A stretch of 64,000 nucleotides of DNA from Rhodanobacter sp. C05. GTDB lineage: Bacteria > Pseudomonadota > Gammaproteobacteria > Xanthomonadales > Rhodanobacteraceae. The number at the start of each line of letters is the position of its first letter. The first letter of the stretch is position 1. The notes under the pieces were generated by a model. It was given only the letters and a program-made list of their open reading frames with translations. It made no database searches and had not been told where the DNA came from. The DNA lies in NCBI RefSeq assembly GCF_002001165.1, contig NZ_MUNQ01000008.1, positions 248,001 to 312,000 on the forward strand. Direction: 5' to 3'. Of this stretch, positions 1 through 35,419 are shown in pieces. The position numbers and the translations under genes are program-made.

Positions 1-515
1 CTCCTTGTCTTTCAGCAACTCGCCGACGCCGTCGGCAAAACGCACCGTCTGGCACAGGTGCGACAGCCAGTAGTCCGGCGAGGTCACCTGCGCTTCTTCG
101 ATCCATGTGCCGGTCAGGTTGGACAGATAGGGAATCGTCGGTGCTTTCAGCGCGATATCCGACAGCAACTCGCGCAAGCCTTCGCACGCCGGTTCCATCA
201 TGTTCGAATGGAACGCATGCGTGGTCTGCAACCGGCGCGTCATGACCTGACGTTCACTCAAGCGTGCTTCCAACGCCTCGATCGCCGCCGTCGCCCCGGA
301 TACCACGGTCATCTTCGGGCTGTTGCAGATCGCCACCGACAGCGCCTCGCCCAGCAGCCTGCGCACTTCATCTTCCGGCAACGGCACGGCCAGCATCGCC
401 CCGCCCGGCAACGCGTCGATCAGCTTGGCGCGCAAGGCCACCACGCGCAGTGCATCTTCCAAGGACAAGCTGCCGGCCACCGTCGCGGCGACGTACTCGC
501 CCAGGCTGTAGCCCA
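1..515. repeat. Near-identical AT-encoding repeat (copy in AT6)
   Basis: Bases 1-515 match 13933-14447 with about ten mismatches by eye (offset 13,932 bp, in frame). Identity falls off after about 515. The repeat may continue past the left edge. It covers the AT active-site region. Confidence 0.85.
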
Positions 516-2428: not shown

Positions 2429-5400
2429 GAACTACGTCCCTGCCGGACTTTTCCGCGTCGCTCAGCCAGCAGTTGACCAGCACTTTCTTCCTGCCCGGTG
2501 GTTTCTTGCGCCGGTGACAACAATCGCACCAGCGCATCGATGGTCGGTGCTTGGTACAGCACCACCTGGGTCAGTTCGACATCAAGTTCTTTGCGCAACT
2601 CGGCAACGACCTGCAGGCCGACCAGCGAATTACCGCCAAGATCGAAGAAGTTGTCCTTGGTGCCAATCTGGTCGATACCCAACGCGCGTTGCCAAACCGC
2701 AGCGATCTTGCGTTCCATCTCATTGCTGGCGGCAATGAACTGACTCGACAACGCGGGGCGCGGATAAGCAGTGGAACGGCCTCCGCGGGTTTGCTTCACC
2801 GCGTTCGAGATGGTGGTGACCGCGCAGCTGTTGCTGCCCTCGATGATCGCCACTGTATCTTCGGGCAGCAGAATCATCTGCGGCGTGTCGAGTGCAAGGA
2901 TGCGGCGGACCGCTTCCATGCCTTCCTCGAAGGTAATGCCGAACTTGCGGCGATGACTGCGCAACGCTTCTTGCATTTCCGGCTGATAGCCCTTCAGGCC
3001 ATCGCTCCATGCATCCCACTGCCATTCGCCGAAGTTGATCGATACCGTCACGCCATGCTTGGTGTGATACCGCTGTGCGAATGCATCCAGGAACGAGTTC
3101 GCGGCGCAGTAGTCGATCTGGCCAGGACCGCCGCCGGTGATCGCCGCAACCGACGAGACCAGCATCATGAAATCCAAATCCACATCGGCGAACGCGCGAT
3201 CGAGTGCAAGCGTACCCTGGATCTTCGGTGCCATCACATCCGCTGCGGCTTGTGCGGTTTTCAGCTGGGTCAGGCCCTGGCCGGGCAGACCCGCTGCGTG
3301 GAATACACCGTTGATCGTGCCGAACTGTTCGAGCGCCTGACGTACGGCGTCTTCCATCTGCGTCGCGTCGGCTACGTCCACGGTAATGATCAACACTTCC
3401 GCGCCGGCATCGATCAGGCCACCGATCTTGCGCACCCGCTCGGTAATCCGGTCATCCTTGCCTGCGGCAAGAATATCAGCCCATTCCTCGCGCGGCGGCA
3501 GGCCGGAACGACCGACCAGCACAAGCTTCGCGTTGCGGGTTTGATAGACATAGTCGGCGAAGGCAAGGCCGATGCCACCCAAGCCGCCGGTGATGAAATA
3601 TACGCCGCCTTCCTTGAAGCGCGGCATTTCGTCCAACAAGGGCGCGTCGATGTGTACCGGCACGGCCACCGGAATCCAGCGTTGCTCATCACGGAACGCA
3701 GTGAACTGGCCTTGGCCGGACAGAATTTCCGCGGCCAGGCGTGTTCCCAATCGATCTGCGCCCAACGCTGCTTCGTTGGATGAGAACAGATCGATGCTGC
3801 GGCAGGCGATCGTTGCGTATTCCTGCCGAATCACTTTGCACGGACCGCGCAACGTTGCCTTGGTCGGATGAATCGTTTCCGTGCCCAGCACTGGCTCCAA
3901 ATCGCTGGCGACGATGCACAGTTCGATCGGCGTGTCGGCCAGTCGCTCGCCAATCGCACGGGCAACGTGGAACAGGCTGTAGAAGCTGTTTTCCAGTTGC
4001 TCGGTCAAATGAGCGGACATATCGGCGTCCCAGCGTTCGGCCGCCCATAGATGCACGATCCGCGCGGGTGTCAGACCGCGGCGCTTGAGATCTTTCAGCA
4101 CCGCGACATAGTCTTCCGGCTTCGCAGCGCGAAGCGAGAGCGAACCGTCCTGCATGACCGCGAAATCTTCGCCGCGTCGGACTAGCACCGTCTCGATGCC
4201 GAGCGACTTTACGGCTGCTGCCAGCGCATCGCCGATGCCGTCGGTATCCGCGAAGATCAGCCAGCATGTACCCGTCGTAGGCGTAGGCGCCTTCAATGCC
4301 CCATCGACGGTACCGACAGCTTTCCATAGCGGTGCATAGAATGAATCGGCAAGCGGCGATTTCTCCGCTAGTGTCATCATGCTCTTTTCCAGCGAGAACG
4401 CTGGTACGGCGACTTCGGCGTCGATCCAATAGCGCTGACGATCGAACGCATACGTGGGCAAGGAAACCTTGAGACGGCGCTCTTCCCCATGGAAAGACGC
4501 CCAATCCGGCTCGATGCCGGCCAGCCACAACCGCCCCACCGCGCCCAACAAGAACGCGTCATCGCGCTGATCTTGGAACGGTGCACGCAATGCAGCGATC
4601 ACCGCCATCCCACGCTCATACGCCGGATGTTGTTTGACGAACGAACCCAAACTTTGGCCCGCGCCCAACTCCAGCAACACGCGTCCCTTGTCCTTCAGCA
4701 ACTCGCCGATGCCATCGGCAAAGCGCACCGTGCCGCACATATGCGACACCCAGTAATCGGCTGATGCTGCTTCCTTCTCGCCGATCCAGGTGCCGGTTAG
4801 ATTCGACAGGTACGGAATCGTCGGCGCCGAGAACGTCACGTCCTCTAACAACTCACGCAACCCTTCGGCGGCGCCATCCAGCATCGGCGAATGGAATGCA
4901 TGTGTGGTTTGCAGTCGACGGTTGACGATGCTCCTTGCCGCCAAGATCGCTTCGAATACTGTGATCGCTGCATCCGATCCCGACACCACTGTTGTCTTCG
5001 GACCATTGCAGATCGCAATCGACACGCCTTCCGGCAGCAGCGCGGATACTTCCGCTTCCGCTAACGGCACTGCGAGCATCGCGCCACCTGGCAATGCTTC
5101 GATCAACTTCGCGCGCAAGGCCACCAAACGTAGCGCGTCTTCCAGCTCCAAACTCCCTGCCACCGTCGCAGCGACGTATTCACCCAGGCTGTAGCCGATC
5201 ATCGCCTGCGGCTGAATACCCCAACTCATCAGCAATTGCGCAAGGCTGTATTCAATGACAAATACTGCCGGCTGCGCCAACCAGGTTGCCTGCAGACGAT
5301 CGTCTGCGCGTGCACCTTGATCGCCGCGCTTCAACAGACCCTTCAGATCCATCGATGCACGTGCTTCGCCGGACAATCCACCTGGTGTAAACAACACCTC

Positions 5401-8400
5401 GCGCAGATCCAGACCGATGACCGGTTCCAATACGGCGCAGCAATGATCGATCAGATCGCGGAACACGACTTCGGTGCGATACAGATCCGCGGCCAAGTCC
5501 TGGTAGTGATCGCCCACACCCGGGAACATAAACACCACCGACGGCTTCGCGTTCGGCGTCAGATGGGCCTGCTCGCCGCCCTCTAGCAGCGCGGTTATCG
5601 CGTCACCCCGTTCGTTGCAGACGACCGCCTTACGGAACTCCAAACGCTTGCGTCCCATCTGCAACGTATAAGCCACGTCCGCCAGGTCTTGCTCGGGGTA
5701 CTCCTGCAGATGTGCGCTCAGCCGGGACGACATGTTATCGAGCGATGCCTGCGTCTTCGCCGATAGCAACAGCAATTGCGTAGGTCTCGAAGCGCTGGAT
5801 GCTTCGATCAGCGGTGCTTCTTCCAGGATGAAGTGCACATTGGTGCCACCCAGGCCCAGCACATTCACGCCGGCGCGGCGCACGGTTTCACCGCGTGGCC
5901 ATGCCACTGGTTTATCGACGACAAAGAACGGACTGTTGGCGAAATCGATATTCGGATTGGGGGCCGTGAAGTGCAGCACGTGAGTAATCAACTCGTGCTG
6001 CAAGGACAGCGCCGCCTTGATCAGTCCCGTGACACCCGAGGCACGATCCAGATGACCGACATTGGGCTTGATCGAGCCCAGTGCGCAGTAGCCGACGCGA
6101 TCGGTACTGCCGCGATATGCCCTGGTCAGTGCCGCCACTTCGATCGGGTCGCCCAGTTCGGTCGCGGTGCCATGGGTTTCCACGAAGCCGATGCTGTCGG
6201 CGTCAACGCCCGCCACCGCCAGCGCTTCGGCGATGGCGACCGACTGGCCCTCCACGCTCGGTGCCGTGTAGCCCACCTTGAACGAACCATCGTTGTTGAT
6301 CGCCGAACCTTTGACCACCGCGTAGATGTGATCGCCATCGGCCAGCGCATCTTCCAGGCGCTTGAATACCACCACACCTACGCCATCACCGATCACCGCG
6401 CCTTTTGAATTGACATCAAACGTACGCGTGTGGCCGTCGGGCGAGTCGATACTGCCCTCCTCAAACATGTAGCCGACCTTGCCGCTGATGGCGATATTCA
6501 CGCCACCGGCCATGGCGATGTCGCATTCGCCGTGCAACAGACTCCTGCACGCGGTATGCATGGCCACGCCCGAGGTCGAGCAGAAGGTCTGTACCGAGAT
6601 CGCCGGGCCGCGCAGATTCAACTTGTAGGCAACCCGCGTCGCCAACGCATCGTTGCTGTTGCCGATGCCAATCTGCAGTCCTGCGACCGGAGACTCCATC
6701 AAATCCGGGCGCGACATCAGATTGTGTACGTACGTGCTCGCGTTCGATCCGGCGAACATGCCGATTGTGCCGGCGTAGCGCCCCGGATCGCAGGCGGCAT
6801 CTTCGAGCGCTTCCCAGGCGCACTCGAGGAACTGCCGATGCTGCGGATCGATAAGTTCCGCTTCGCGTGGCGCATAACCGAACAACGGCGCGTCGAACAG
6901 ATCGAAACCCTCGACGTCATAACCCGCACGCACGTAATTCGGATTCCGCAATTTCGCCGGACTGACACCTGCCTCGAGCAACTCGGCCTCGGTGTAGAAC
7001 GTCACCGCCTCTACACCCGCACTGAGGTTCTTCCACAATTCTTGCGGTGTCCGCGCGCCGGGGAAACGACCGGACATGCCGATCAGGGCGATGTCGTTCG
7101 AGCTACGCCCCTGTCTGACTTTTCCGCGTCGCTCGGCCAGCCGTTGACTGGCGCTTTCTTCCTGTCCGGTGGTTTCTTGCGCCGGTGACAGCAAGCGCAC
7201 CAGCGCATCGATGGTCGGTGCTTCGTACAGCACCACCTGGGTCAGCTCGACATCGAGTTCTTTGCGCAACTCGGCGACGACCTGCAAGCCGACCAGCGAA
7301 TTGCCACCGAGATCGAAGAAATTATCCTTGGTGCCAATCTGGTCGATACCCAACGCACGCTGCCAAACCGCAGCGATCTTGCGTTCCATCTCATTGCTGG
7401 CCGCAATGAACTGACTCGACAACGCAGGGCGTGGATAGGCGGTCTGCCGACGCCCACGCGACTGCTGCACGGCGCTGGAAAGTTTGGCAACGGCACATAT
7501 GTTGCTGCCCCCGATCATCGCAACTGCATCTTCGGGCAGCACGATCATCTGCGGCACGTCGAGCGAAAGTATGCGGCGAATCGCCTCCATGCCTTCCTCG
7601 AAGGTGATACCGAATTGTCGACGATGCGCCACCATTGCCTCGCGCAGCTCCGGCTGGAATCCCTTCAAACCTTCGCTCCAGGCATCCCACTGCCATTCGC
7701 CGAAGTTGATCGACACCGTGGCGCCATGCCGGGATCGGTTGCGTTGTGCGAACGCATCGAGGAAAGCATTACCCGCACAGTAATCAATCTGGCCTGGGCC
7801 ACCGCCAGTCAATGCGGCAATCGACGAGACCAGCAGCATGAAGTCCAAGTCCACACCCGCGAACGCGTGATCGAGCGCAAGCGTGCCCTGAATCTTCGGC
7901 GCCATGACCTCCGCCGCGGCTTGTGCGGTTTTCAGCTGGGTCAGACCCTGGCCGGGAAGGCCTGCTGCGTGGAATACGCCGTTGATCGTGCCGAACTGCT
8001 CGGTCGCCTGGTGCACGGCGTCATTCATCTGCGCCTGATTTGCCACGTCCGCGGTGATGACCAGCACTTGAGCGCCGGCTTTCACCAAGTTGTTGAGCTT
8101 GCGTACCCGTTCGCTGACGCGGTCTTCGCCGACCTGCACGCTGATCTCATCCCACTGCTCACGCGGCGGCAACGCAGAACGTCCGACCAATACCAGCTTG
8201 GCGCTTTGGGTCTGATACAGATACTCGGCAATCGCCAGACCGATGCCACCCATGCCGCCGGTGATGAAATAGACCCCGCCTTCCTTGAGCCGTGGCGTAG
8301 CCTCAAGTGGCGCATCAATGCGCACACGCTCGACGAGCGGAAGCCAGCGTCGGTTGTCGCGGAAGGCGACGAACTGATCCTTATGGCCAGCCAACAGCTC

Positions 8401-17400: not shown

Positions 17401-20400
17401 CTCCTCGCGCGGCGGCAATCCTGATCGGCCCACCAGCACGAGCTTCGCGTTGCGGGTTCGGTACACATACTCGGCGAAAGCGAAGCCGATACCGCCTAAA
17501 CCACCGGTGATGAAATAAACCCCGCCTTCCTTCAGGCGCGGAATCTCATCGAATGGCGCTTCGATTTGCACCGGCTCAGCGACCGCAATCCAACGTTGTC
17601 CGTCGCGGAATGCAGTGAACTGATCTTCGCCAGAGAGAATCTCGGCGGCCAGACGCGATCCCAATCGATCTGCCGCCAACACTGCTTCGCTGGACGAGAA
17701 CAGATCAATGCTGCGGCAGGCGACGCTTGCGAATTCCTGCCGAATGACTTTGCACGGACCGCGCAACGTCGCTTTCGTCGGGTGAATCGTTTCCGTGCCG
17801 AGCACCGGCTCCATATCGCTAGCGACGATGCACAGTTCGATTGGCGTATCGCTTAGCCGCTCACCGATGGCTTGGGCCAGATGGAACAAGCTGTAGAAGC
17901 CTGTTTCCAGGTGTTCTTGTAAATGGCCGGACAGATCAGCGTCCCAGCGTTCGGCCGCCCACAAATGCACGATCCGTGCGGGCGTCAGACCGCGGCGCTT
18001 GAGATCTTTCAGCACCGCAATGTAATCGTCCTTCTCTGCGGCACGAAGCGAGAGGGAACCATCGTTTGCGACCTCGAAAGCATCGCCACGCCTGACCAAC
18101 ACCGTCTCGATGCCAAGCGGTTTCACTGCCGCGGCCAACGCATCGCCGATGCCGTCCGTATCCGCAAAGATCAACCAACACGAACCGGTCGGCAGTGCGA
18201 ATGTCTTCAATGCGCCATCAACCGTCCCGATGCTCTTCCACGACGGTACGTAGAACGAATCGGCAAGCGGTGATTTCTCCGCCTGCGTCAGCATGCGATT
18301 TACGAGAGACCAATCGGTTACTTCCGTGTCGATCCAGTAGCGCTGACGATCGAATGCATAGGTCGGCAACGAAGCTTTGAGACGGCGTTCTTCGCGATAG
18401 AAAGCCGCCCAATCCGGCTCGATGCCGGCCAACCACATCCGGCCCACGGCGCCCAACAGGAAAGCATCATCGCGCTGATCTTGGAACGGTGCGCGTAGCG
18501 TCGGGATCACCGCCATCCCACGCCCATACGCCGGATGCTGCTTGACGAACGAGCCCAAACTCTGGCCCGCGCCCAGCTCCAGCAAGACGCGTCCCTTGTC
18601 TTCGCCCAACAACTCGCCGATGCCATCGGCGAAGCGCACCGTGCCGTACATATGCGACACCCAATAATCCGCCGAGGCCGCTTCCTGCTCGCCGATCCAG
18701 GTGCCGGTCAGATTCGACAGATACGGAATCGCCGGTGCCGAGAACACCACGTCCGCTAACAGCTCGCGCAGTCCTTCGGCCGCGCCGTCCAGCATCGGCG
18801 AATGGAACGCATGCGTGGTTTGCAAACGACGGCTGACAATCGTCTTTGCGGCAAGCGTCGCTTCGAATGCTGCAATCGCTGCGTCCGAGCCAGATACCAC
18901 CGTGGTCTTCGGGCCATTGCAGATGGCAATCGATACATCTTTCGGTAGCAGCGCAGCGACTTCCGCTTCCGCCAACGGCACCGCCAACATCGCCCCGCCC
19001 GGCAACGCTTCAATCAACTTCGCGCGCAACGCGACCAGGCGCAGCGCGTCTTCCAAACTCAGACTTCCTGCTACCGCCGCAGCAACATATTCGCCCAGGC
19101 TGTAACCGATCATCGCTTGCGGCTGGATACCCCAGCTCATCAGCAATTGCGCCAAGCTGTATTCGATGACGAAGACTGCAGGCTGTGCCAACCATGTCGC
19201 CTGCAGACGATCATCTGCGCGCGCGCTCTGATCGCCACGCTTTAGCAGAGCCTTCAGATCCATCGTTGCACGCGGCTGGCCGGACAAGCCACCTGGCGTG
19301 AACAGCACCTCGCGCAGATCCAAACCGATCACCGGCTCCAACACGGCGCAGCAATGATTGATCAGATCGCGGAACGCTGCCTCGGTCCGATACAGATCCG
19401 CAGCCAGGTCCTGGTAGTGATCGCCCACGCCCGGGAACATGAACACCACCGACGGCTTGCCGTTCGGTGCCAGATGCGGCTGTTGGTCTGCTTGCAGTGC
19501 AGCGATGGCTTCGCCGTGATCGTTGCAGACCACTGCTTTGCGGAATTCCAACCGCTTGCGTCCCGTTTGCAGCGTGTAGGCCACATCCGCCAGGTTCTGC
19601 TCGGGGTGTTCTTGTAGATGCGCACTCAGTCGCGCCGACAATCCATCCAGCGACGCTTGCGTCTTCGCCGACAACAACAAAAGTTGCGCGCCACGCGAGG
19701 GACCCGACGGCTCGATCTCCGGTGCTTCTTCCAGAATGAAGTGCACATTGGTGCCACCGACACCCAGTGTCGTCACGCCCGCGCGCCACGGCGAAACCGA
19801 GGCCGGGAGTTCCTGCCGCTGGTTGCTCACCACAAACGGACTGTTGGCCAGATCGATCTTGGGATTGGGCCGCTCGAAATGCAGCGTCGGCGGCACCAAG
19901 CCCGACTTCAGCACGTGGGTCGCCTTGATCACGCCGATCACACCAGCGGCGCGGTCGGTATGACCGATATTGGGTTTGATCGAGCCGAGCGCGCAGTAGC
20001 CAACCTTGTCGGTGCTCTCGCGATACGCCTTGGTCAGTGCCGCCAACTCGATCGGATCGCCCAGCTCGGTTGCCGTGCCATGCGCCTCGACATAATGAAT
20101 GTCAGCGGCGCTTAGTCCGGCGTTCTCAAGCGCCATTGAAACCACTTCGGACTGTTGCTCGACGCTAGGCGCGGTATAGCCAGCCTTTAGCGAACCGTCA
20201 TTGTTGACGGCCGAGCCCTTGATCACCGCGTGGATCGTGTCGCCGTCCTCAATCGCGTCCTCAAGACGCTTCAGCAACACCATGCCGATGCCGTCGGAGA
20301 ACACGGTGCCCTGTGCGCGCGCATCGAATGTACGTGTATGACCGTCGGGGGAAGCCTGATTGCCAGGCTCGTAGAGATAGCCGCCCGTGCTTGGAACACG

Positions 20401-23400
20401 CAGGGAGATGCCGCCTGCCAACGCCATATCGGACTCGCCGGCGCGCAAGCTCTGGCACGCCAGGTGGATCGCGACGCCGGACGTCGAACAATACGTGCCG
20501 ACCGAGAGACTCGGCCCTCTCAAATTTAGCTTGTAAGAAACGCGGGTAGCGAGCGAATCCTGGGTATTGGCCAGATAGGTATCGAACTCGTTGAGCCCTT
20601 CCCACAATGCCCGATCTAAAAACAGGCCAGCCTGGTATTCGCTGGGAGTGGTGCCGGCGAAGACAGCGATCGATCCGTCATAGCGATACGAATCGTAGCC
20701 GGCATGTTCCAGCGTCTCCCACGCGGTCTCCAGCATCAGGCGATGCTGCGGATCCATCAATTCCGCTTCGCGCGGACTGATGCCGAACACGCCCGCATCG
20801 AACAGGTCGATGTCCGCGACGACGCCGCGCACCTTCACGTAAGCGGGATTGTGCACAAGCGCCGGATCGACGCCGGCTTCGCGCAATTCGTCATCACTGA
20901 AACGGACCAACGATTCGACACCGTTCAGCGCGTTATCCCAAAGCGCGCGAATATCCGGCGCTCCCGAAGACCGGCTCGCCATGCCGATGATGGCGATATC
21001 CGAAGAAGTCGAACCACGCTTGACCAATCGGCGACGCCTGGCCGAGGTGTCAGCTGCCGCCGGTCGATCTTCGCCCCCAAGCAACGACGCCAGGCGTTGG
21101 CTGACCGCGCTGATGCTGGGCGCCTCGAAGATCAGGATCGGCGACAGCTGCGTTTCGAACTCGCGCTGCAATTCCGCCAGGATCTGCAAAGAGACCAGCG
21201 AGTTTCCACCAAGCTCAAAGAAATTATCTTCCAGCCCGATCGCGTCGATCCCCAGCACGTCCTGGAAAACCCGGGCGACGCGCTTCTCGATCTTGCTGCT
21301 CGCCGCGACATAGGCGGTGCTCACCGCCGGGCGCGCGTAGTAAGAAAGCTTGCGCTCCGTGTTGCCGCCAGTCGGGGATGCCGCCTTGCGATACACCCAC
21401 TGGTCGAGGCGCGACCACAGATCCGCCGTTGAATTGACAAGCCGCGCAGACGCGCTCGATCCCAACACCCGACGGACCGCCTCGGCGCCCTCGTCCGGCC
21501 ACATCAACAACCCTTCCAGGGTGGTGCCTTTATTGTCCTGTGTCCCCCGACCACTCGCCCAGGTGTCCCAATTCACCGAGACCCAGCGCGTACCCACGGC
21601 ATTGCGCCGCGACACCACGAAACTGTCTTCGAATGCATTCGCCGCGACATAAGCCGACAAGGTAAGGCCACCCAGCACCGCCGAAATCGACGAGAACACC
21701 AGGCAGAAATCGGCGTTGCGCGTTTCCAGCAAACGCGAGAGCGCCAGCGTTCCACGAATCTTCGCACTGAAATGCGTATCGATTTGCTGCGCCGTCAGTT
21801 CGCCGATGATGTTGTTGGACGCGGCAGTGATAAGGCCGGCGGCATGAAACACGCCATGCACCTGGCCATAACGTTCGTCGAGGAGGGCAAAAATTTCACC
21901 CATCCGCGCTTCGTCGGCAACGTCCGCGGTAAGCACCAGCACTTCACCGCCGGCGGCTTCCATCTCGAGCAGCTTGGTGATCTGCTGGCTGACGGATTCC
22001 TCGGCGTCATGCTCGGACAACCACTGCTCCCACTGCGCACGCTCAGGGAATGCACGACGCGATAGCAGCGCGACCTTTGCGTGATAGCGGTGGGTCAGCA
22101 TTCCGGCCACAGTCAAGCCGACGTTGCCGAGGCCGCCGGTGATGACGTATACACCACCCTGACGCAACACATCGCGATCCGCCGCGACTTCCGCCAGCGG
22201 CTCGGACTCATAGCGCTGCACCAGACGCACATCGCCACGATAGGCAATCGCGACGTCCTCGCTCGGCGACAGAATCTCCGCCAGCAGTCGACTGCCAGCT
22301 TCCGCATCGATGCCGTCGATGTCGACGCTGCGCACCGCGACGTTCTGATATTCCTGTGAGATGGTACGGATCGCACCGATCAGCGTTGCTTTCGCCGTGC
22401 TTATCGCATCGTCCATCCGTGCCGCATACAGTCCATTCGAAACGATATCGAGTTGAATCGGCGCTGTGCTCCGACTCTCTCCCAGCGCCTTCATCAACGC
22501 CAACAGGCTCAAATACCCCCGCGCCTGCGCAGCGTCAAAGTCATCTTCCGCGGTCAAACCACCAAGATGCACGATGCGATTCGGAACAAAGCCTTCCTTC
22601 CGCATCTCGCCAATCGCGCGCCGCAGACGCTCGGGATCCGACGCGACGTCGGTCGATACGATCCGCTTCGATCCACGCAAACCCTTGCTCAACGCTTCGC
22701 CCGCAGAACTATCTGCGAACAGCACGAGCCAGTTTGCCGCCCCGGCATCCGCACTGGCCTGCACTACCGATGCTTCGCTCCACGATTCTCGGTAGAACCA
22801 CTTGCCGATATCCGCAATCTTCTCGCCAACTTCTTGTGTCGACGGAACCACCTGCTGCCGCGCCTCGAGCCAATAGCGCTGGCGATCGAACAACCAACTG
22901 GGCAGCGAAACGTGGCTGCCGGGGGCATCTTCGAATGTAGCGTCCCAATTTACGGAACCGCCGGCGCACCAGAATTCACCGAGGCTCTTGAGGAAGACTG
23001 CCTGATCTTCTTGCGGATCGAACGCGCCACGGCAGGTGGAAACCACCAGGTGCTTGCGTTGATTAAAACTGGGGTGCAAGCGGGCCAGCGAGTTCAGACT
23101 CTGACCTGGGCCGATCTCGATCAACGCGCCGGACTCGCGCTCGAACAGCTTTTCGAGGCAAGCACCGAATTGCACGGTTTCGCAAAGATGACGTCCCCAA
23201 TAGGCAGAGGATGTCGCCTCATCATCTTGCAACCAGTCGCCAGTCACGTTCGACAGGATCGGGATGCGCGGAGCAGACAGCTGCATGCCGTCGATCAAAT
23301 CCGACAGCGCCTTCGCCACCGGCTGCATCATCGGCGAATGGAAAGCGTGCGAGGTGCCCAGGAGACGGCTGATAAAGCCATCTTCTTGCAGCTTTTCTTG

Positions 23401-25797
23401 AATCGCCTTGACCGCCGCGAGCGGGCCCGATACGACACTCAGACGCGGACCGTTGACGATGCCGATCGCCAGCTCCACATCCTTATTGAGATATTCGCCA
23501 AGCGCTTCCGTCCCAAGCGGTACGGCCAACATTGCACCGGCCGGCAATTCGCTTATCAAGCGCGCCCGGGTCGCAACGATCCGGAGCCCGTCTTCCAGCG
23601 AGAACACGCCCGCGAGCGTCGCCGCCGTATATTCCCCAAGGCTATAGCCGACACATGTTCCAGGCGCAATTCCCCATGTTTCCAGCAGGCGCGCCAACGC
23701 GTATTCCAGTACAAACACGGCCGGCTGCGCCAGTTCGGTCTGCGCCAGGATGCCAAGATCTCGCTCTCCGGCAACCATGCGGCGGAATGCGTCGCCCGCA
23801 CTGGCCTCCCTCGATGGCCGCGTCTGGAAGACATCCAGCAGATCGAGGTCGAGTTCACTCTTCAACCAGCCGCAGCAGTAATCCACCCATTGGCGGAATA
23901 CCGGTTCGGCTTGATAAAGACCCTGTCCCATTCCAAGGTAGTGATCGCCGACACCGGCAAACACGAATGCCGGCGACATCTCGGGAGAAAGCAAACGTTC
24001 CGATTTCGCAACTACAGGACTGGCACCAGGAGCCGCATCCGCGACAACGACCGCACGATAGGGATAGCTTTCACGCTTCGTTAGCGTATACGCCAGATTG
24101 CGGCGGGACGGCGCATTGCCACCGCGCAAGCTCTCATCGACAACGCGGCACGCACGCTCCAGGCCAGCAGCAGTCCGCGCTGAAACCGGGAAAGCTCTGA
24201 AGATGATCTCGTCGTCTTTTTCGGCCTCTGTCGGAGCAGCCTCCAAAACTACGTGCACGTTGGTGCCACCGAAACCAAACGCACTGACGCCAGCCAGAGG
24301 CAAGCGCGAGCTAGTCGGCCACGGCGTCAGCGCCGTGACGACTTCCACCATCGTCTTGTCGAAGCCGATGCGCGGATTCGGTCGTTCGAAATGGAGCGAG
24401 GCGGGAATTTGGCGATGCTTCATCGCCAGCACGGTCTTGATAAGACCGGCCATGCCGGCCGCAGCCTCCAGGTGACCGAGATTCGTCTTGACCGAGCCAA
24501 TCAGACATTTGCGATCGGCCGGTCGCCCTTGCCGCAACACCGCCGACAAGGCAGCGACTTCGATCACATCGCCGATCGGTGTCGCTGTTCCGTGAGCCTC
24601 GACATAGTCGACGTCCGCCGGCGAGATGGCCGCCGCCTCATAGGCGGCTTCCAGCATCGCTTCCTGGGCCGCCCGGTTCGGCGTCGTCAGCGCGAGCGTC
24701 CTGCCATCCTGATTGATTGCGCTGCCGCGGATCACGCCGTAAATGCGGTCGCCATCTGCTTGCGCGCGCGAACAGGTTTTGAGCACCAGCGCCGCGGCGC
24801 CTTCACCACGAACATAGCCGCTCGCATCCGCATCGAACGTTCGGCACTTCCCATCCGAGGACAACAATCCTGCCTGCGAAAACACGATGGTGAATTCCGG
24901 CGTCAACATCAAATTGACCGCGCCCACCAAAGCCGTTCGCGACTCGCCGCTGCGAAGGCTTTGGCAGGCCATGTGAATCGCCGTCAAAGCCGAGGAACAA
25001 GCCGTGTCGATCGATAAGCTCGGCCCGCGCAAATCGAAGAAATAGGAAATTCGATTAGCCGTGATGCTTGCTGAATTACCGGTTCCTGCATAAGCGTCGA
25101 TCGAGCAGCGATCACTGAATTGCCGGTCGCGATATTCCTGGTTCGACAGACCAACGAACACACCAACCCGGCTGCCGCGTACGGCGTCGCGATTGAGGCC
25201 AGCGTCTTCGAGCGCCTCCCATGCAACTTCGAGCATCGCCCGCTGCTGCGGGTCCATGCGTTCTGCTTCGCGCGGCGCTATGCCGAACGCTTCGGCGTCG
25301 AATTCCTCGATGTCAGGGATGAAGCCGCCATGTCGCGTGTTCATCTTGCCCGGTGTGCCGATGACCGGATCGTAGACGGAGTCCAGATCCCAACGCGCCG
25401 CAGGCACTTCCGAAATCGCGTCCTTGCCGGAACTCAGCAATTCCCAAAATTCAGCGAGATTTTGTGCGCCCGGAAAACGGCAGGACATGCCGACGATGGC
25501 GATCGGCTCCTGCGCCGGCAATGCCGGCTCCGCAGGTCGGGAAGAGCGTTGCGTCGACCGCTCACCCGTCGCAGAAATATATTCGACGACGTCGCCGATG
25601 GAATCGAAATCGTAAAACAGAGTGACCGGCAGTTCGGTTTCGAGCCAACGCTCGAAATCGCCGGTCAGGGCTGCGGCTTCGCTGGAGGATAGACCGAGAT
25701 CCGAAAAGGAATCATCCCACGTAATCTCCGACATCGAGACTCCGCTGATTTCCCCCAGATGCTCGACGAGCCACTGACCAATAACGTTCTTATCCAT
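1..25797 (-). CDS. Giant modular type I polyketide synthase (3' end beyond left edge)
   Basis: One uninterrupted frame of 8,599 codons reads from an ATG at 25797 to base 1 and stays open. Order: ACP0, (KS-AT-KR-ACP) x5, KS-AT. KS cysteines are at residues 267, 1770, 3323, 4851, 6406 and 7963, each followed by HGTAT and a GH motif. AT serines are at 719, 2233, 3787, 5312, 6870 and 8431 in GYS(L/V)GE(Y/F), and all ATs that can be checked carry HAFHS, the malonyl-type signature. Five KRs keep a glycine-rich NADPH motif and the K-S-Y-N residues. Five ACPs carry LGGNSL; ACP0 has LGLSS. No DH, ER, MT or TE motif is seen. A second in-frame ATG at 25806 is possible; neither start has a strong SD. The chain is predicted to be beta-hydroxylated at each step. 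ABC exporter and tailoring genes precede it on the same strand. Confidence 0.96.
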   Translation of the reverse strand, partial: MDKNVIGQWLVEHLGEISGVSMSEITWDDSFSDLGLSSSEAAALTGDFERWLETELPVTLFYDFDSIGDVVEYISATGERSTQRSSRPAEPALPAQEPIAIVGMSCRFPGAQNLAEFWELLSSGKDAISEVPAARWDLDSVYDPVIGTPGKMNTRHGGFIPDIEEFDAEAFGIAPREAERMDPQQRAMLEVAWEALEDAGLNRDAVRGSRVGVFVGLSNQEYRDRQFSDRCSIDAYAGTGNSASITANRISYFFDLRGPSLSIDTACSSALTAIHMACQSLRSGESRTALVGAVNLMLTPEFTIVFSQAGLLSSDGKCRTFDADASGYVRGEGAAALVLKTCSRAQADGDRIYGVIRGSAINQDGRTLALTTPNRAAQEAMLEAAYEAAAISPADVDYVEAHGTATPIGDVIEVAALSAVLRQGRPADRKCLIGSVKTNLGHLEAAAGMAGLIKTVLAMKHRQIPASLHFERPNPRIGFDKTMVEVVTALTPWPTSSRLPLAGVSAFGFGGTNVHVVLEAAPTEAEKDDEIIFRAFPVSARTAAGLERACRVVDESLRGGNAPSRRNLAYTLTKRESYPYRAVVVADAAPGASPVVAKSERLLSPEMSPAFVFAGVGDHYLGMGQGLYQAEPVFRQWVDYCCGWLKSELDLDLLDVFQTRPSREASAGDAFRRMVAGERDLGILAQTELAQPAVFVLEYALARLLETWGIAPGTCVGYSLGEYTAATLAGVFSLEDGLRIVATRARLISELPAGAMLAVPLGTEALGEYLNKDVELAIGIVNGPRLSVVSGPLAAVKAIQEKLQEDGFISRLLGTSHAFHSPMMQPVAKALSDLIDGMQLSAPRIPILSNVTGDWLQDDEATSSAYWGRHLCETVQFGACLEKLFERESGALIEIGPGQSLNSLARLHPSFNQRKHLVVSTCRGAFDPQEDQAVFLKSLGEFWCAGGSVNWDATFEDAPGSHVSLPSWLFDRQRYWLEARQQVVPSTQEVGEKIADIGKWFYRESWSEASVVQASADAGAANWLVLFADSSAGEALSKGLRGSKRIVSTDVASDPERLRRAIGEMRKEGFVPNRIVHLGGLTAEDDFDAAQARGYLSLLALMKALGESRSTAPIQLDIVSNGLYAARMDDAISTAKATLIGAIRTISQEYQNVAVRSVDIDGIDAEAGSRLLAEILSPSEDVAIAYRGDVRLVQRYESEPLAEVAADRDVLRQGGVYVITGGLGNVGLTVAGMLTHRYHAKVALLSRRAFPERAQWEQWLSEHDAEESVSQQITKLLEMEAAGGEVLVLTADVADEARMGEIFALLDERYGQVHGVFHAAGLITAASNNIIGELTAQQIDTHFSAKIRGTLALSRLLETRNADFCLVFSSISAVLGGLTLSAYVAANAFEDSFVVSRRNAVGTRWVSVNWDTWASGRGTQDNKGTTLEGLLMWPDEGAEAVRRVLGSSASARLVNSTADLWSRLDQWVYRKAASPTGGNTERKLSYYARPAVSTAYVAASSKIEKRVARVFQDVLGIDAIGLEDNFFELGGNSLVSLQILAELQREFETQLSPILIFEAPSISAVSQRLASLLGGEDRPAAADTSARRRRLVKRGSTSSDIAIIGMASRSSGAPDIRALWDNALNGVESLVRFSDDELREAGVDPALVHNPAYVKVRGVVADIDLFDAGVFGISPREAELMDPQHRLMLETAWETLEHAGYDSYRYDGSIAVFAGTTPSEYQAGLFLDRALWEGLNEFDTYLANTQDSLATRVSYKLNLRGPSLSVGTYCSTSGVAIHLACQSLRAGESDMALAGGISLRVPSTGGYLYEPGNQASPDGHTRTFDARAQGTVFSDGIGMVLLKRLEDAIEDGDTIHAVIKGSAVNNDGSLKAGYTAPSVEQQSEVVSMALENAGLSAADIHYVEAHGTATELGDPIELAALTKAYRESTDKVGYCALGSIKPNIGHTDRAAGVIGVIKATHVLKSGLVPPTLHFERPNPKIDLANSPFVVSNQRQELPASVSPWRAGVTTLGVGGTNVHFILEEAPEIEPSGPSRGAQLLLLSAKTQASLDGLSARLSAHLQEHPEQNLADVAYTLQTGRKRLEFRKAVVCNDHGEAIAALQADQQPHLAPNGKPSVVFMFPGVGDHYQDLAADLYRTEAAFRDLINHCCAVLEPVIGLDLREVLFTPGGLSGQPRATMDLKALLKRGDQSARADDRLQATWLAQPAVFVIEYSLAQLLMSWGIQPQAMIGYSLGEYVAAAVAGSLSLEDALRLVALRAKLIEALPGGAMLAVPLAEAEVAALLPKDVSIAICNGPKTTVVSGSDAAIAAFEATLAAKTIVSRRLQTTHAFHSPMLDGAAEGLRELLADVVFSAPAIPYLSNLTGTWIGEQEAASADYWVSHMYGTVRFADGIGELLGEDKGRVLLELGAGQSLGSFVKQHPAYGRGMAVIPTLRAPFQDQRDDAFLLGAVGRMWLAGIEPDWAAFYREERRLKASLPTYAFDRQRYWIDTEVTDWSLVNRMLTQAEKSPLADSFYVPSWKSIGTVDGALKTFALPTGSCWLIFADTDGIGDALAAAVKPLGIETVLVRRGDAFEVANDGSLSLRAAEKDDYIAVLKDLKRRGLTPARIVHLWAAERWDADLSGHLQEHLETGFYSLFHLAQAIGERLSDTPIELCIVASDMEPVLGTETIHPTKATLRGPCKVIRQEFASVACRSIDLFSSSEAVLAADRLGSRLAAEILSGEDQFTAFRDGQRWIAVAEPVQIEAPFDEIPRLKEGGVYFITGGLGGIGFAFAEYVYRTRNAKLVLVGRSGLPPREEWNAILAAGKDDQLTERVRKISGLIEAGADVLMITADVADQTQMDASVREAVARFGTIDGVFHAAGLPGQGLTQLKTVQVAADVMAPKIQGTLALDRALSGIKLDFMILVSSIAAITGGGPGQIDYCAANAFMDAFAQRHRAKHGVTVSINFGEWQWDAWSDGLKGYQPEMQEALRSHRRQFGITFEEGMEAVRRILALDVPQMILLPEDAVAMIEGSNSCWVTNISSAVQQTRGRRPTAYPRPALSSQFVAASNEMERKIAAIWQRALGIDQIGTKDNFFDLGGNSLVGLQVVAELRKELDVDLRQVVLFEAPTIDALVRYLSPATEDSVAQDAGRVLAERRERVRVGSASRDIALVGMSGRYPGARTPQELWKNVSAGVESVTFYSEAELQEAGVSAAKLRNPNYVRVGYDVADFDVFDARLFGYAPREAEMIDPQHRQFLECAWEALEDAACDPETYRGLIGIFAGAAGSAYMHNVLAHPELLTSGLATLQAGIGNHNDSLATRVAYKLNLRGPAMSVQTFCSTSGVAMHAACKSLQYGECDIAMAGGVHIGISGKAGYLYEEGGIDSPDGHTRTFDADAKGSVISDGVGVVVFKRLEDALADGDHIYAVVKGSALNNDGSFKIGYTAPSVEGQVAVVTEALAVAAVTADSISFIETHGTATELGDPIEVTALTKAYRQSTDKVGFCALGSIKTNIGHTDRAAGVTGMIKAALSLQHERITQVLHFKAPNPNIDFANSPFFVAEQAMAWPRGAVPRRAAVNVLGLGGTNVHFILEEAPELEPSGPSRGTQLLLLSAKTQSSLDGLSARLSAHLQEHPEQNLADVAYTLQMGRKRLEFRKAVVCNERGEAIAALEQGGEQGHLTPNGKPSVVFMFPGVGDHYQDMAVDLYRTEPVFRDELDYCCEQLQQVIGLDLRELLFTQAGRVGGARPVLDLKALLKRGEQGPQADNALQQTWLAQPCVFVIEYCLAHLLMSWGIVPQALIGYSLGEYVAATVAGSLSLEDALRVVALRAKLIDALPGGAMLAVPLPEDEVRGLLGDALSVAICNSPKMTVVSGATAAIEALEARLSERQVMTRRLQTTHAFHSNMMEPVCEGLRELLSDIALKAPTIPYLSNLTGTWIEEAQVTSPDYWLSHLCQTVRFADSVGELLKDKERVLIEVGAGQSLASFVKQHPGYDKDAAPVISVLRAVFHEQADDAFLQTALAKLWLTGIEPDWAAYYANERRLKLSLPTYAFEQQRYWIEPGKSNLEDDAENGKLADIGRWFYQTQWLPSPLGANATDAQSLEQSTWLVLLDRVGAGAALASKLREHAQHVVTITAHETATFSASATHDYVINAGDPSHLTRVLRELRQAGITPEHIVHLGNVDDAQTFDALQEHGFFSLLGLVRALDESRMTGLIRLLVVSTGLYAVRDGDAMSSGKGTSIGACRTIPQECPNITLRSIDLDVVDIDRLFSEVVATTDDVAVAYRGDERLVQTYATLPADEVLPDHDVLRQNGTYVITGGLGNVGMTLAGMLARRYAAKVALLSRRDFPARELWDTWLSEHAGDDETSRQIIQLRAIEETGGEVLVLTADSADEVRMGEAFALLEARYGQIHGVFHAAGLNTLESHNIIKETTRERCEAHFVAKVHGTQVLGKLLESRHADFCMLFSSLSATLGGITLSMYAAANAYEDSYALSQRNNANTRWVSVNWDSWAREGEQFHKGTTLEAFLMWPDEGSEAVRRVLGSTRANHLINSTASLHARLDQWVYRKHLRQKSARGEALSYYERPALSTSYVAASNEVEQRIAQVFQDVLGINKVGLDDNYFELGGNSLISLQLIAELQREFNVPLSPILLFEASSVSALAKHLLPANESLMHAPSKVDTDKRRQRARRGNAGSGIAIIGMSGRFPGADDVKTFWNNALNGVESLTIFSDDELREAGVDPALIHNPAYVKARGIVEGVDLFDAGVFGINPREAELMDPQHRLMLEVAWQTLEHAGYDSHRYDGPIGVFAGTMQSLYQMRLHTDRELWAGLDFFDTAMANTQDSLSTRISYKLNLSGPSLSIGTYCSTSAVAIHLACQSLRSGESDMALAGAASLRVPSRQGHLFEQGNQGSPDGHTRTFDARAQGTVFSDGVGMVLLKRLDDALEDGDTIHAVIKGTAINNDGSLKAGFTAPSVERQAEVITLALADAELTPADIHYIEAHGTATELGDPIEVAALTRAFRQTTAEKQFCLLGSIKSNFGHADRAAGVFGVIKATHILQTGLAPPTLHFERPNPKMDLANSPFFVSNQLYRLPATATPRRAGVTALGVGGTNAHIILEQSPTLAPSEPGKPWNFLTLSARTPTALDAMRENLAEALEADENIQLADAAFTLHRGRREFGERLAVVGRDHAEMVQALRNHDSVRHVRGSKESAKRPVAFLFPGVGEQYVNMAAGLYRELPEFRQDMEHCFDLLREFDIDLRDVLFVENMPAQNQEKRMLRGDVAQDSFTQKLNQTVHAQPCMFVLEYCLARQLMRWGVQAEAMLGYSVGEFAAAAIAGILSLSDAVRLVAGRARIIDTLPGGVMLAVPLAASEVTPLLSAGLAVGISNGPKLCVVSGAEAAVAEFEKVLAAKNIVSRRLPTTHAFHSPMMRPAADALRELLKTVPLHAPSMRYLSNVTGTWITDAEATDPEYWVRHMCQSARFGECLDVLLGKGDWILLEVGPGISLASLVKQRAVALKSETSPVVVSTLPSAYVRDDDHAVLTSAMARLWVSGTAPDWNTYYTGESRRRIPLPTYAYERQRYWIEIAQDDFSIADGMLTQREKAKLPDFFYAPLWAASGELSADLSALKLAERACWLIFADTDGAGDLLAKTVEPLGVDAVRVQRGQSFAEAGDGTFVLRPAEKKDYDALFKALKRRGQLPSRIVHMWTAEQWEQQTTAPLQEQIDASFYSLFSLAQSLGDYLNDVAVELCIVSSDMESVLGIEAIHPTKALVKGPCKVIRQEFADITCRSIDLFSTHDSHTGTEQLVAQLAKELLAGHKDQFVAFRDNRRWLPLVERVRIDAPLEATPRLKEGGVYFITGGMGGIGLAIAEYLYQTQSAKLVLVGRSALPPREQWDEISVQVGEDRVSERVRKLNNLVKAGAQVLVITADVANQAQMNDAVHQATEQFGTINGVFHAAGLPGQGLTQLKTAQAAAEVMAPKIQGTLALDHAFAGVDLDFMLLVSSIAALTGGGPGQIDYCAGNAFLDAFAQRNRSRHGATVSINFGEWQWDAWSEGLKGFQPELREAMVAHRRQFGITFEEGMEAIRRILSLDVPQMIVLPEDAVAMIGGSNICAVAKLSSAVQQSRGRRQTAYPRPALSSQFIAASNEMERKIAAVWQRALGIDQIGTKDNFFDLGGNSLVGLQVVAELRKELDVELTQVVLYEAPTIDALVRLLSPAQETTGQEESASQRLAERRGKVRQGRSSNDIALIGMSGRFPGARTPQELWKNLSAGVEAVTFYTEAELLEAGVSPAKLRNPNYVRAGYDVEGFDLFDAPLFGYAPREAELIDPQHRQFLECAWEALEDAACDPGRYAGTIGMFAGSNASTYVHNLMSRPDLMESPVAGLQIGIGNSNDALATRVAYKLNLRGPAISVQTFCSTSGVAMHTACRSLLHGECDIAMAGGVNIAISGKVGYMFEEGSIDSPDGHTRTFDVNSKGAVIGDGVGVVVFKRLEDALADGDHIYAVVKGSAINNDGSFKVGYTAPSVEGQSVAIAEALAVAGVDADSIGFVETHGTATELGDPIEVAALTRAYRGSTDRVGYCALGSIKPNVGHLDRASGVTGLIKAALSLQHELITHVLHFTAPNPNIDFANSPFFVVDKPVAWPRGETVRRAGVNVLGLGGTNVHFILEEAPLIEASSASRPTQLLLLSAKTQASLDNMSSRLSAHLQEYPEQDLADVAYTLQMGRKRLEFRKAVVCNERGDAITALLEGGEQAHLTPNAKPSVVFMFPGVGDHYQDLAADLYRTEVVFRDLIDHCCAVLEPVIGLDLREVLFTPGGLSGEARASMDLKGLLKRGDQGARADDRLQATWLAQPAVFVIEYSLAQLLMSWGIQPQAMIGYSLGEYVAATVAGSLELEDALRLVALRAKLIEALPGGAMLAVPLAEAEVSALLPEGVSIAICNGPKTTVVSGSDAAITVFEAILAARSIVNRRLQTTHAFHSPMLDGAAEGLRELLEDVTFSAPTIPYLSNLTGTWIGEKEAASADYWVSHMCGTVRFADGIGELLKDKGRVLLELGAGQSLGSFVKQHPAYERGMAVIAALRAPFQDQRDDAFLLGAVGRLWLAGIEPDWASFHGEERRLKVSLPTYAFDRQRYWIDAEVAVPAFSLEKSMMTLAEKSPLADSFYAPLWKAVGTVDGALKAPTPTTGTCWLIFADTDGIGDALAAAVKSLGIETVLVRRGEDFAVMQDGSLSLRAAKPEDYVAVLKDLKRRGLTPARIVHLWAAERWDADMSAHLTEQLENSFYSLFHVARAIGERLADTPIELCIVASDLEPVLGTETIHPTKATLRGPCKVIRQEYATIACRSIDLFSSNEAALGADRLGTRLAAEILSGQGQFTAFRDEQRWIPVAVPVHIDAPLLDEMPRFKEGGVYFITGGLGGIGLAFADYVYQTRNAKLVLVGRSGLPPREEWADILAAGKDDRITERVRKIGGLIDAGAEVLIITVDVADATQMEDAVRQALEQFGTINGVFHAAGLPGQGLTQLKTAQAAADVMAPKIQGTLALDRAFADVDLDFMMLVSSVAAITGGGPGQIDYCAANSFLDAFAQRYHTKHGVTVSINFGEWQWDAWSDGLKGYQPEMQEALRSHRRKFGITFEEGMEAVRRILALDTPQMILLPEDTVAIIEGSNSCAVTTISNAVKQTRGGRSTAYPRPALSSQFIAASNEMERKIAAVWQRALGIDQIGTKDNFFDLGGNSLVGLQVVAELRKELDVELTQVVLYQAPTIDALVRLLSPAQETTGQEESAGQLLAERRGKVRQGRSSNDIALIGMSGRFPGARTPQELWKNLSTGVESVTFYTDAELLEAGVSPAKLRNPNYVRAGYDVEGFDLFDAMLFGYAPREAELIDPQHRQLLECAWEALEDAACDPERYAGMIGMFAGSNASAYINNLMSRPDLMESPVAGLQIGIGNSNDALATRVAYKLNLRGPAISVQTFCSTSGVAMHFACKSLLLGESDIAMAGGVHIAISGKAGYMFEEGGIDSPDGHTRTFDVNSKGTALGDGVGMVVFKRLEDALADGDHIYAVVKGSAINNDGSFKVGYTAPSVEGQSVAIAEALAVAGIDAGTIGFVETHGTATELGDPIEVAALTKAYRGSTDRVGYCALGSVKPNIGHLDRASGVTGLIKAALSLQHELITQVLNFTAPNPNIDFVNSPFFVSNKPIAWPRGETVRRAGVNVLGLGGTNVHFILEEAPLLEASSASRPAQLLLLSAKTQRSLERMVDRLGAHLREHPEQNLADVAYTLQTGRKRLEFRQAVICHDHTDAVAALEVGDVKRVLAAHQPPNSKRSAVFMFPGVGDHYQDMAVDLYRHEAVFREELDHCCSLLEPVIGLDLREVLFTPGGLSGEARAAVDLKALLKRGEQGPQAGDSLQQTWLAQPCVFVIEYCLAHLLMSWGLMPTALVGYSLGEYVAATVAGSLSLEDALRVVALRAKLIDALPGGAMLAVPLPEDEVRRLLGEALSVAICNSPKMTVVSGATAAIEALEARLSERQVMTRRLQTTHAFHSNMMEPACEGLRELLSDIALKAPTIPYLSNLTGTWIEEAQVTSPDYWLSHLCQTVRFADGVGELLKDKE
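2429..7095 (-). other. PKS module 5: KS-AT-KR-ACP
   Basis: KS5 starts near 7095 with VQTFCSTS (Cys6406). AT5 has GYSLGEYVAA (Ser6870) and resembles AT2. KR5 (FITGGLGGIG, near 3600) has VSSVAA and DYCAANS. ACP5 has LGGNSLVGLQ near 2620-2640. The KS5 start and the KS6 start lie 4,671 bp apart and the flanking DNA is very similar. Confidence 0.88.
7096..11757 (-). other. PKS module 4: KS-AT-KR-ACP
   Basis: KS4 starts near 11757 with GTYCSTS (Cys4851). AT4 has GYSVGEFAAA (Ser5312) and FPGVGEQY, clearly different from the other ATs, although HAFHS is kept. KR4 (FITGGMGGIG, near 8280) has VSSIAA and DYCAGN. ACP4 carries LGGNSLVGLQ near 7300. AT4 is a candidate for an unusual extender, but this cannot be decided from sequence alone. 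Confidence 0.88.
11758..16344 (-). other. PKS module 3: KS-AT-KR-ACP
   Basis: KS3 starts at 16344 with VQTFCSTS (Cys3323). AT3 (Ser3787) is almost identical at DNA level to AT6 over about 500 bp. KR3 (YVITGGLGNVG, near 12900) is of the same subtype as KR1 and has MYAAAN at the catalytic tyrosine. ACP3 has LGGNSLISLQ near 11960. Catalytic residues are intact. Confidence 0.88.
13933..14447. repeat. Near-identical AT-encoding repeat (copy in AT3)
   Basis: Partner of the repeat at 1-515. The other ATs in the gene are clearly more divergent over the same stretch, so this looks like recent duplication or gene conversion between modules 3 and 6. Confidence 0.85.
16345..21000 (-). other. PKS module 2: KS-AT-KR-ACP
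   Basis: KS2 starts at 21000 (DIAIIGMAS) with active-site GTYCSTS (Cys1770). AT2 has GYSLGEYVAA (Ser2233) and resembles AT5. KR2 is of the FITGGLGGIG type (about 17530) with VSSIAA and IDYCAAN. The ACP carries LGGNSLVGLQ near 16530-16560. The catalytic residues are intact, so a beta-ketoreducing extension is predicted. Confidence 0.88.
21001..25515 (-). other. PKS module 1: KS-AT-KR-ACP
   Basis: KS1 begins near 25510 and has a canonical DTACSS active site (Cys267), unlike the other KSs, fitting its role of accepting the starter from ACP0. AT1 (Ser719, GYSLGEYTAA) is divergent from AT2, 3, 5 and 6. The KR core starts near 22170 (YVITGGLGNVG) with SS, AYVAAN and a lysine in FSAKIRG. The ACP (LGGNSLVSLQ) is near 21190-21240. 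There is no space for a DH between AT and KR beyond the KR structural subdomain. Predicted product: beta-hydroxy extension. Confidence 0.88.
25560..25797 (-). other. PKS N-terminal loading ACP (ACP0)
   Basis: Roughly residues 1-80. The sequence DDSFSDLGLSSSEA around residues 28-41 matches the helix-II start of a carrier protein, with Ser38 as the likely phosphopantetheine site. It lies in front of the first KS with no loading AT, so the starter is probably delivered in trans, most simply by the fatty-acyl-AMP ligase encoded at 28907-30736. The motif departs from the LGGNSL shared by all other ACPs in the protein. Confidence 0.8.
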
Positions 25798-25888
25798 AGT
25801 ACGCATTTGGCACCCATCGATTGCAATTCATTGATTGACAGCAGCAAAGGCGTTTGCCGAGGCCGCTGAAGAATCGAACGGAAGTACT

Positions 25889-28774: not shown

Positions 28775-28906
28775 CTCTATTCCTCCGAAGAAAAGACAGC
28801 GAAAGATCGCAACTACGGATAGCAAAGCTTGAGTCGCCACTGTCGCCGGAACGATAAGCAACGCCCCAGCGCCGGAGCCGATGAAGAATTTGTGGTGGCG
28901 TACCGA

Positions 28907-30736: not shown

Positions 30737-30797
30737 CACCCAACTCCCACTAGAAGGATCGTTCGAATGCGTCAATCACGCCGCCTCGCTGCGCACT

Positions 30798-32704: not shown

Positions 32705-32732
32705 AATCACAGCCCTCAAAATTTAAGTATCT

Positions 32733-32984
32733 TCAAGCAGGCACAACTACACCTACTTTTCTTCCAAGCATCTGCGCAATCGAATTAATCGTGCTGAAAT
32801 TTGTTAACTGCAGATCGTCATCCTCGATCGTGATCGAGAACTCTTTCTCCAGCCAGGCGATAAGTTGAATCGCGAACAATGAGTTCACGTAACCGCCTGC
32901 AAATACGTCGTCTGCGTCGTCGAGCCCATCCGTCCGGAAAAAGCGGGAAAAGAACTGACGGACTATTTGTTTGTACTCACTCAT
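32733..32984 (-). CDS. Stand-alone acyl carrier protein, FkbJ/ZmaD-like
   Basis: 83 residues from ATG 32984 (AAGGA 11 nt upstream); an ATG four codons earlier at 32996 is possible. The serine in GGYVNSLFAIQL is the predicted phosphopantetheine site. The VNSLFA form is typical of carriers that hold methoxy- or hydroxymalonyl units and differs from the LGGNSL of the PKS ACPs. It lies between FkbI-like and FkbK-like genes, so it should carry the glycerate-derived extender unit to a PKS acyltransferase. Confidence 0.9.
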   Translation of the reverse strand: MSEYKQIVRQFFSRFFRTDGLDDADDVFAGGYVNSLFAIQLIAWLEKEFSITIEDDDLQLTNFSTINSIAQMLGRKVGVVVPA

Positions 32985-33007
32985 AGTGGAATCCATCCTT
33001 TTCGGAA

Positions 33008-33862: not shown

Positions 33863-33938
33863 GTTATCACCCCTTCGATAATGACCAATCAAAATGGTTG
33901 CGAACTGCGAAACGTCCCGATAAACATCGATGAAACTG

Positions 33939-35365: not shown

Positions 35366-35374
35366 GCACTGTGA

Positions 35375-35401: not shown

Positions 35402-35419
35402 ACCTATAATTCCGAATCC

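Follow-up and report, generated by a model that had tools for sequence, protein, structure and literature searches.

On balance, and with somewhat more confidence than doubt, we read the giant PKS in the window (the whole stretch of 64,000 nucleotides analysed; contig 22:248001-312000 of the 4.25-Mb genome of Rhodanobacter sp. C05) as the core of a PKS-NRPS line that is primed by a fatty acyl-AMP ligase (FAAL) and performs six rounds of hydroxymalonyl extension, which would give a lipid-polyol-peptide with some 12 hydroxylated carbons in unbroken succession. If true, this would be a modular, protein-templated route to stereodefined sugar-like chains, adding two hydroxyls per step. This reading draws on what the sequence shows: the order of genes and domains, motifs that are intact, the genes for the extender, and the AT signature together with its distribution.

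On the minus strand, a single open frame runs without a stop from position 25806 to the left edge of the window (8,602 codons; ORF list and translation). With the sequence left of the window added, the full-length PKS comprises 10,748 aa (contig 22:241560-273806) and, as laid out by Pfam and by local domain models built on this PKS and its Dyella relative, consists of a loading carrier, six intact modules, and a decayed seventh (Table 1). The protein thus ends beyond the left edge, as the preliminary description had stated. In the window, Pfam finds six KS, six AT, five KR, and six carrier stretches, which bears out the five complete KS-AT-KR-ACP modules and the incomplete sixth described there; the loading carrier was taken as one of three PP-binding stretches in residues 1-4000. 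By motif reading, the KS Cys, EAHGT/ETHGT, and N-x-GH as well as the AT motifs GYSxG and HAFH are each present in 6/6 domains in the window, and the NADPH motif, Lys, and Tyr...Asn in 5/5 KRs. The intact KS and KR residues claimed earlier are therefore real, and the catalytic motifs that were checked are kept in modules 1-6. Moreover, no DH or ER family is detected by Pfam at E<=0.01 anywhere in the 10,748 aa, which speaks against a DH or ER hidden within the modules and gives an all-KR line over its full length.

Table 1. Features of the PKS and of the genes upstream of it, with positions in the window.
Feature	Position	Strand	Evidence
Type I PKS, N-terminal 8,602 of 10,748 aa; remainder beyond the left edge, ending at contig 22:241560	1..25806	-	
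Module 6, partial: KS plus the greater part of AT; remainder beyond the left edge	1..2418	-	motifs and domain models
Module 5, KS-AT(GYSLG)-KR-ACP	2536..7089	-	motifs and domain models
Module 4, KS-AT(GYSVG)-KR-ACP	7207..11751	-	motifs and domain models
Module 3, KS-AT(GYSLG)-KR-ACP	11866..16338	-	motifs and domain models
Module 2, KS-AT(GYSLG)-KR-ACP	16453..20994	-	motifs and domain models; AT2 best PDB match ZmaA 4qbu
Module 1, KS-AT(GYSLG)-KR-ACP	21109..25500	-	motifs and domain models
N-terminal loading carrier domain	25579..25806	-	motif LGLSSSE
Cyclic-peptide type ABC exporter	25889..27586	-	TIGR01194, 406 bits, cut-off 286
FkbH, glyceryl-ACP former	27665..28861	-	TIGR01686, 269 bits, cut-off 147
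Fatty acyl-AMP ligase (FAAL), predicted starter loader	28907..30775	-	profile matches
4'-Phosphopantetheinyl transferase, long ORF	30798..31835	-	domain from residue 147-150 onward
Acyl-CoA dehydrogenase, hydroxymalonyl set	31487..32719	-	profile matches
Discrete ACP, hydroxymalonyl set	32733..32996	-	
3-Hydroxyacyl-CoA dehydrogenase, hydroxymalonyl set	33008..33892	-	
Type II thioesterase	33939..34721	-	
MbtH-like protein	34785..35000	-	
Second type II thioesterase (paralogue)	35420..36229	-	
Second MbtH-like protein	36293..36508	-	by eye closely alike to 34785-35000

Four genes adjoining the PKS, for FkbH, a discrete ACP, a 3-hydroxyacyl-CoA dehydrogenase, and an acyl-CoA dehydrogenase, correspond to those given for hydroxymalonyl-ACP formation in zwittermicin and butyrolactol (PMC5355916, in part). 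Among the neighbouring ORFs scanned, there is no methyltransferase that would give methoxymalonyl, and these four genes without an O-methyltransferase are the complement sought for hydroxymalonyl-ACP use. A motif scan of FkbH loci for O-methyltransferases likewise gave no match, with a motif that may be too strict. The best named models of the FAAL are one NRPS/PKS model and FAAL models, all below their cut-offs; the FAAL models score well, though under the curated thresholds. As in FAAL-primed lipopeptide systems, the FAAL is accompanied by an N-terminal carrier on the first PKS, and a fatty-acid start is therefore indicated. Two further features of this region are a thioesterase and MbtH-like pair that stands twice in tandem (window 33939-36508), i.e. 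a local duplication, and a 349-base overlap between the phosphopantetheinyl transferase and acyl-CoA dehydrogenase ORFs (30798-31835 and 31487-32719). Since the transferase domain begins near residue 147, its true start is probably further in.

Downstream and in the same direction, the PKS continues into three NRPS proteins, the last of which ends in a thioesterase. According to domain search, NRPS 1 consists of a TubC docking domain followed by C-A-PCP, NRPS 2 of A-PCP-C-A-PCP, and NRPS 3 of three C-A-PCP modules and a TE. NRPS 2 (contig 22:232709-237883) opens with an adenylation domain that no condensation domain precedes, so that the peptide may depart from colinearity. With its string of catalytically intact KS-AT-KR-ACP modules and the C-A-PCP modules behind them, the line qualifies as a cis-AT modular type I PKS-NRPS hybrid. 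The predicted product is no pure polyketide, in that it starts from a fatty acid and is extended by NRPS modules.

From this arrangement, we infer starter loading, the extender of each module, KR activity, transfer past module 7, product structure, and function. The FAAL would charge the N-terminal carrier domain with a fatty acid, and hydroxymalonyl would be made on the discrete ACP by FkbH and the two dehydrogenases. Modules 1-6 would each take hydroxymalonyl and, after condensation and keto reduction, leave CH(OH)-CH(OH) per round. With hydroxymalonyl in each module, about 12 contiguous hydroxylated carbons are therefore predicted for the acyl chain after six rounds. Further, the decayed module 7 would simply hand the chain onward, the three NRPS proteins would append amino acids, the thioesterase would free the product, and the cyclic-peptide type exporter would remove it.

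The choice of extender is addressed by the ATs. GYS[LV]G and HAFH are found in each of the six live ATs (motif reading). GYSFG occurs in ZmaA-AT, which uses hydroxymalonyl-ACP, and GYSLG in ZmaF, which uses aminomalonyl-ACP, while the five tabulated CoA-using ATs carry GHS (PMC4207774, in part). Thus, the GYSxG of ZmaA is found in 6/6 live ATs, whereas of the signature GHSxG plus HAFH, indicative of malonyl-CoA and a 1,3-polyol, HAFH is present and GHS absent. In addition, the best PDB match of AT2 is ZmaA (4qbu, 3.8e-63). Since all six live ATs are GYSxG, a contiguous 1,2-polyol is more likely than a 1,3-polyol, and each of the six modules probably adds hydroxymalonyl. The polyol from an all-KR line with hydroxymalonyl genes adjoining, as first described, accordingly stands, but its 1,3-pattern with optional alpha-hydroxyls is probably inverted.

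We regard it as distinctly less probable, though a serious contender, that malonyl-CoA serves most modules, giving a 1,3-polyol into which hydroxymalonyl enters only once or a few times. HAFH in 6/6 ATs and the Arg at the third RXR position, near the AT pocket, are malonyl-like features, which would speak against hydroxymalonyl use; the lid of ZmaA-AT, which uses hydroxymalonyl-ACP, as is predicted here, and shares the GYSxG motif, has GAAH and MCM where the ATs here have HAFH and hydrophobic-x-Arg (PMC4207774, in part). Hydrophobic residues at both RXR ends have been proposed for hydroxymalonyl-ACP use (PMC4207774, in part), and ZmaA has such a hydrophobic pair, whereas the site is hydrophobic-x-Arg in 6/6 live ATs. 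Arg at this site is also found in most GYS-HAFH ATs of other FkbH loci and in many GHS controls, and RXR was dropped as a classifier because GYS and GHS ATs are not told apart by it in this set. Moreover, one paper describes the AT motifs for methoxymalonyl-ACP as poorly defined (PMC7489565, in part), and AT1 and AT4 stand further apart, with 47% and 53% identity to AT2, so their substrate could differ. Against malonyl-CoA, all six ATs are GYS and cluster with those of loci carrying ACP-extender genes, while the ATs of relatives are mostly GHS (52/58, among the matches listed) and GHS in Herpetosiphon is limited to two large modules. Furthermore, hydroxymalonyl use may be compatible with a malonyl-like assignment: the late KR-only AT modules of butyrolactol are annotated as malonyl (PMC5932044, in part), and yet its polyol derives from hydroxymalonyl-ACP (PMC5355916, in part); gene order suggests that these late modules form that polyol.

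How closely GYS follows the extender genes was read from several samples. The best AT per genome, among the matches listed (capped at 30 per search) in 58 genomes of the family and class for which a locus was given, has H in 52, Y in five, and L in one. All five Y genomes carry a strong FkbH match; the 53 non-Y genomes include one (G409) with an FkbH of 58% identity and a few with weak FkbH of about 28-35%. Both ATs read in G409 are nevertheless GHS, and the match to its FkbH homologue (C25:43307-44344), beside a GHS AT, is reported with one internal TAA. In another genome (G232), the AT beside FkbH is GYS though only 30% identical to AT2, and a further AT there is GHS. Loci fetched around FkbH homologues contain 31 Y and 37 H among 68 readable ATs. 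FkbH presence therefore does not imply GYS, and the converse rule, in which each FkbH-side AT would be GYS, is ruled out by these 37/68 ATs and by G409.

For plasmids, a prediction was written before reading. An AT2-like AT is present in 152 plasmid records and FkbH at E<=1e-40 in 21; eight FkbH-bearing records were read along with 11 lacking FkbH. The AT match is GYS in 8/8 plasmids with FkbH (five streptomycete and three cyanobacterial records; one FkbH-bearing plasmid, L215, holds a GHS AT too) and GHS in 9/11 without. The two GYS exceptions are stand-alone ATs on Streptomyces plasmids NZ_CP108735.1 (L232) and NZ_CP107797.1 (L233). A divergent FkbH was ruled out for them, as no similarity was found in the one compared. 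Their operons hold a hydroxyacyl-CoA dehydrogenase, an ACP, an acyl-CoA dehydrogenase, and an amino acid:carrier-protein ligase/seryl-tRNA synthetase-like protein, which in both cases matches amino acid:carrier-protein ligase models below cut-off. These operons contain what an aminomalonyl-ACP pathway would need and thus represent a possible route to aminomalonyl-ACP. Together with ZmaF (PMC4207774, in part), these two ATs beside seryl-type carrier ligases demonstrate that GYS also occurs with aminomalonyl-type genes, and the GYS ATs here might take this other ACP-bound extender to form an aminopolyol. We give this very little credence, because the neighbouring gene here is FkbH and no seryl-type ligase is present among the neighbouring ORFs scanned.

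On a FastTree phylogeny of 154 of the 156 ATs collected (two with neither Y nor H were left out), the Y/H state changes only four times, and an independent-pairs test had two pairs and no power. The association of GYS with the extender therefore rests on few independent events, and with this weight the GYSxG signature appears to track ACP-bound hydroxymalonyl and aminomalonyl extenders. The GYS rule may serve as a quick flag for ATs that use such units.

Orthologous clusters are present in Dyella subtropica RXD159 (NZ_JAPDPD010000015.1) and Oleiagrimonas citrea MEBiC09124, with identities of 83/81% for FkbH, 87/86% for the ACP, 90/85% for HBDH, and 92/86% for KS1, respectively. These two are the best named FkbH matches, followed by matches of <=61% (the window's own genome possibly being excluded). 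A close FkbH occurs in 3/233 family genomes, the window's own included, which represent three genera; in a wider phylum sample, only the window's own of 398 genomes has one at E<=1e-70. Dyella subtropica has seven intact modules in a single PKS of 10,858 aa (C6:88692-121268), in contrast to the six plus a decayed seventh here, and by motif reading its NRPS has three modules, leaving no space for a TE, compared to three NRPS proteins plus TE here. The Oleiagrimonas locus is split across two contigs, and its last module has all four domains. Of the A-domain codes, read at assumed positions, just two had a standard look, both from Dyella and presumably for Ser.

Left of the window, module 6 is completed and followed by the decayed module 7 and the last ACP. 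Motif reading gives EASGT instead of EAHGT in KS7, an AT7 without GxSxG, and a KR7 without its motifs, while the KS Cys and the ACP Ser are retained; module 7 looks dead. As the last modules of Dyella and Oleiagrimonas are complete, its decay is seen in this genome only. In codon comparisons with Dyella, six domains of modules 1 and 2 have omega values of 0.04-0.23, and the intact part of the line is therefore under purifying selection, as judged by these ratios. KS7 has an omega of 0.18-0.31 against three Dyella KS, and ACP7 of 0.39. For AT7 and KR7, values of 0.59 and 0.71 against Dyella module 7 come from poor alignments with dS above 1. These two values, the catalytic residues lost in KS7, AT7, and KR7, and the rarity of a close FkbH in the family would fit a decaying cluster, its seventh module lost and its output small or nil. 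We consider this improbable in view of more than 10,000 stop-free codons, six intact modules, the low omega of the six intact domains, and the kept KS7 Cys and ACP7 Ser; the codon data indicate that selection maintains the intact part of the line.

Two types of KR occur among the modules, one GGxTxSxY-like and the other GGGPGQxxY; the KS domains past module 1 likewise fall into two types, GTYCSTS and QTFCSTS (motif reading). KS type matches the preceding KR type in 13/13 intact-KS pairs from the line in the window, Dyella, and Oleiagrimonas, the dead KS7 being the sole mismatch. This pairing fits a KS tuned to the incoming stereochemistry; shared ancestry of KR-ACP-KS blocks would equally yield it. 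No GTY-type KS is found among the Herpetosiphon KS motifs read.

The all-KR run is not unique: such modules number seven in Dyella subtropica and 14 in Herpetosiphon aurantiacus. In strain DSM 785 of the latter, 14 consecutive ATs match AT2 with 49-53% identity, and the region comprises two large GHS-AT modules, then 14 KS-AT(GYS)-KR-ACP modules, then FkbH and repeated-carrier proteins. Because of its 2+14 modules, its FkbH, and a GC content of 65.7%, it presumably corresponds to pks-nrps5 (Haur_04184-Haur_04206) of strain 114-95T, reported with 16 PKS and 7 NRPS modules, hydroxymalonyl-ACP genes, the label 'Macrolide', about 66% GC, and transposon fragments at its flanks (PMC3368417, in part). 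Like the line here, pks-nrps5 is a PKS-NRPS hybrid with hydroxymalonyl-ACP genes and a run of KS-AT(GYS)-KR-ACP modules; unlike it, two large GHS modules come first and the run of 14 is distributed across seven genes. Of the known systems pks-nrps5 stands closest, and the kind had thus already been seen in 2011, although the available part of that paper does not spell out a uniform hydroxymalonyl run and gives no product structure and no name beyond 'macrolide' (PMC3368417). A characterised cluster with another product did not turn up in the sequence and literature searches made, nor did a literature search of open-licence papers return one on this cluster or its product.

The only contiguous hydroxymalonyl-derived polyol we met for comparison is butyrolactol A, whose PKS likewise employs hydroxymalonyl-ACP, with ZmaN/D/G/E homologues and no O-methyltransferase near the cluster (PMC5355916, in part). 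It has eight contiguous oxygenated carbons (PMC5355916, in part), compared to about 12 predicted here if each module adds hydroxymalonyl. In contrast to the line here, the butyrolactol PKS has mixed DH/ER modules, some late modules are annotated without an AT, and the available part of its domain list contains neither the FAAL nor the NRPS present here (PMC5932044). A broader proposal, which we advance tentatively and at a little under even confidence, is a class of template-driven 'polyketide sugar' synthases, in which uniform hydroxymalonyl-only runs (six here, seven in Dyella, 14 in Herpetosiphon) would give fully hydroxylated chains of a predicted 12, 14, and 28 carbons, approximately, before the peptide. 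The order of the two KR types would set the stereochemistry, with each KS matched to the preceding KR, and the polyol would take the place that a glycan holds in a glycolipopeptide.

Directly past the last NRPS sit a nicotianamine synthase-like gene (contig 22:220033-221852; Pfam NAS, with a weak match to staphylopine CntL) and an adjoining gene for a 2OG-Fe(II) oxygenase. The nicotianamine synthase-like gene could modify the peptide or be part of a metallophore.
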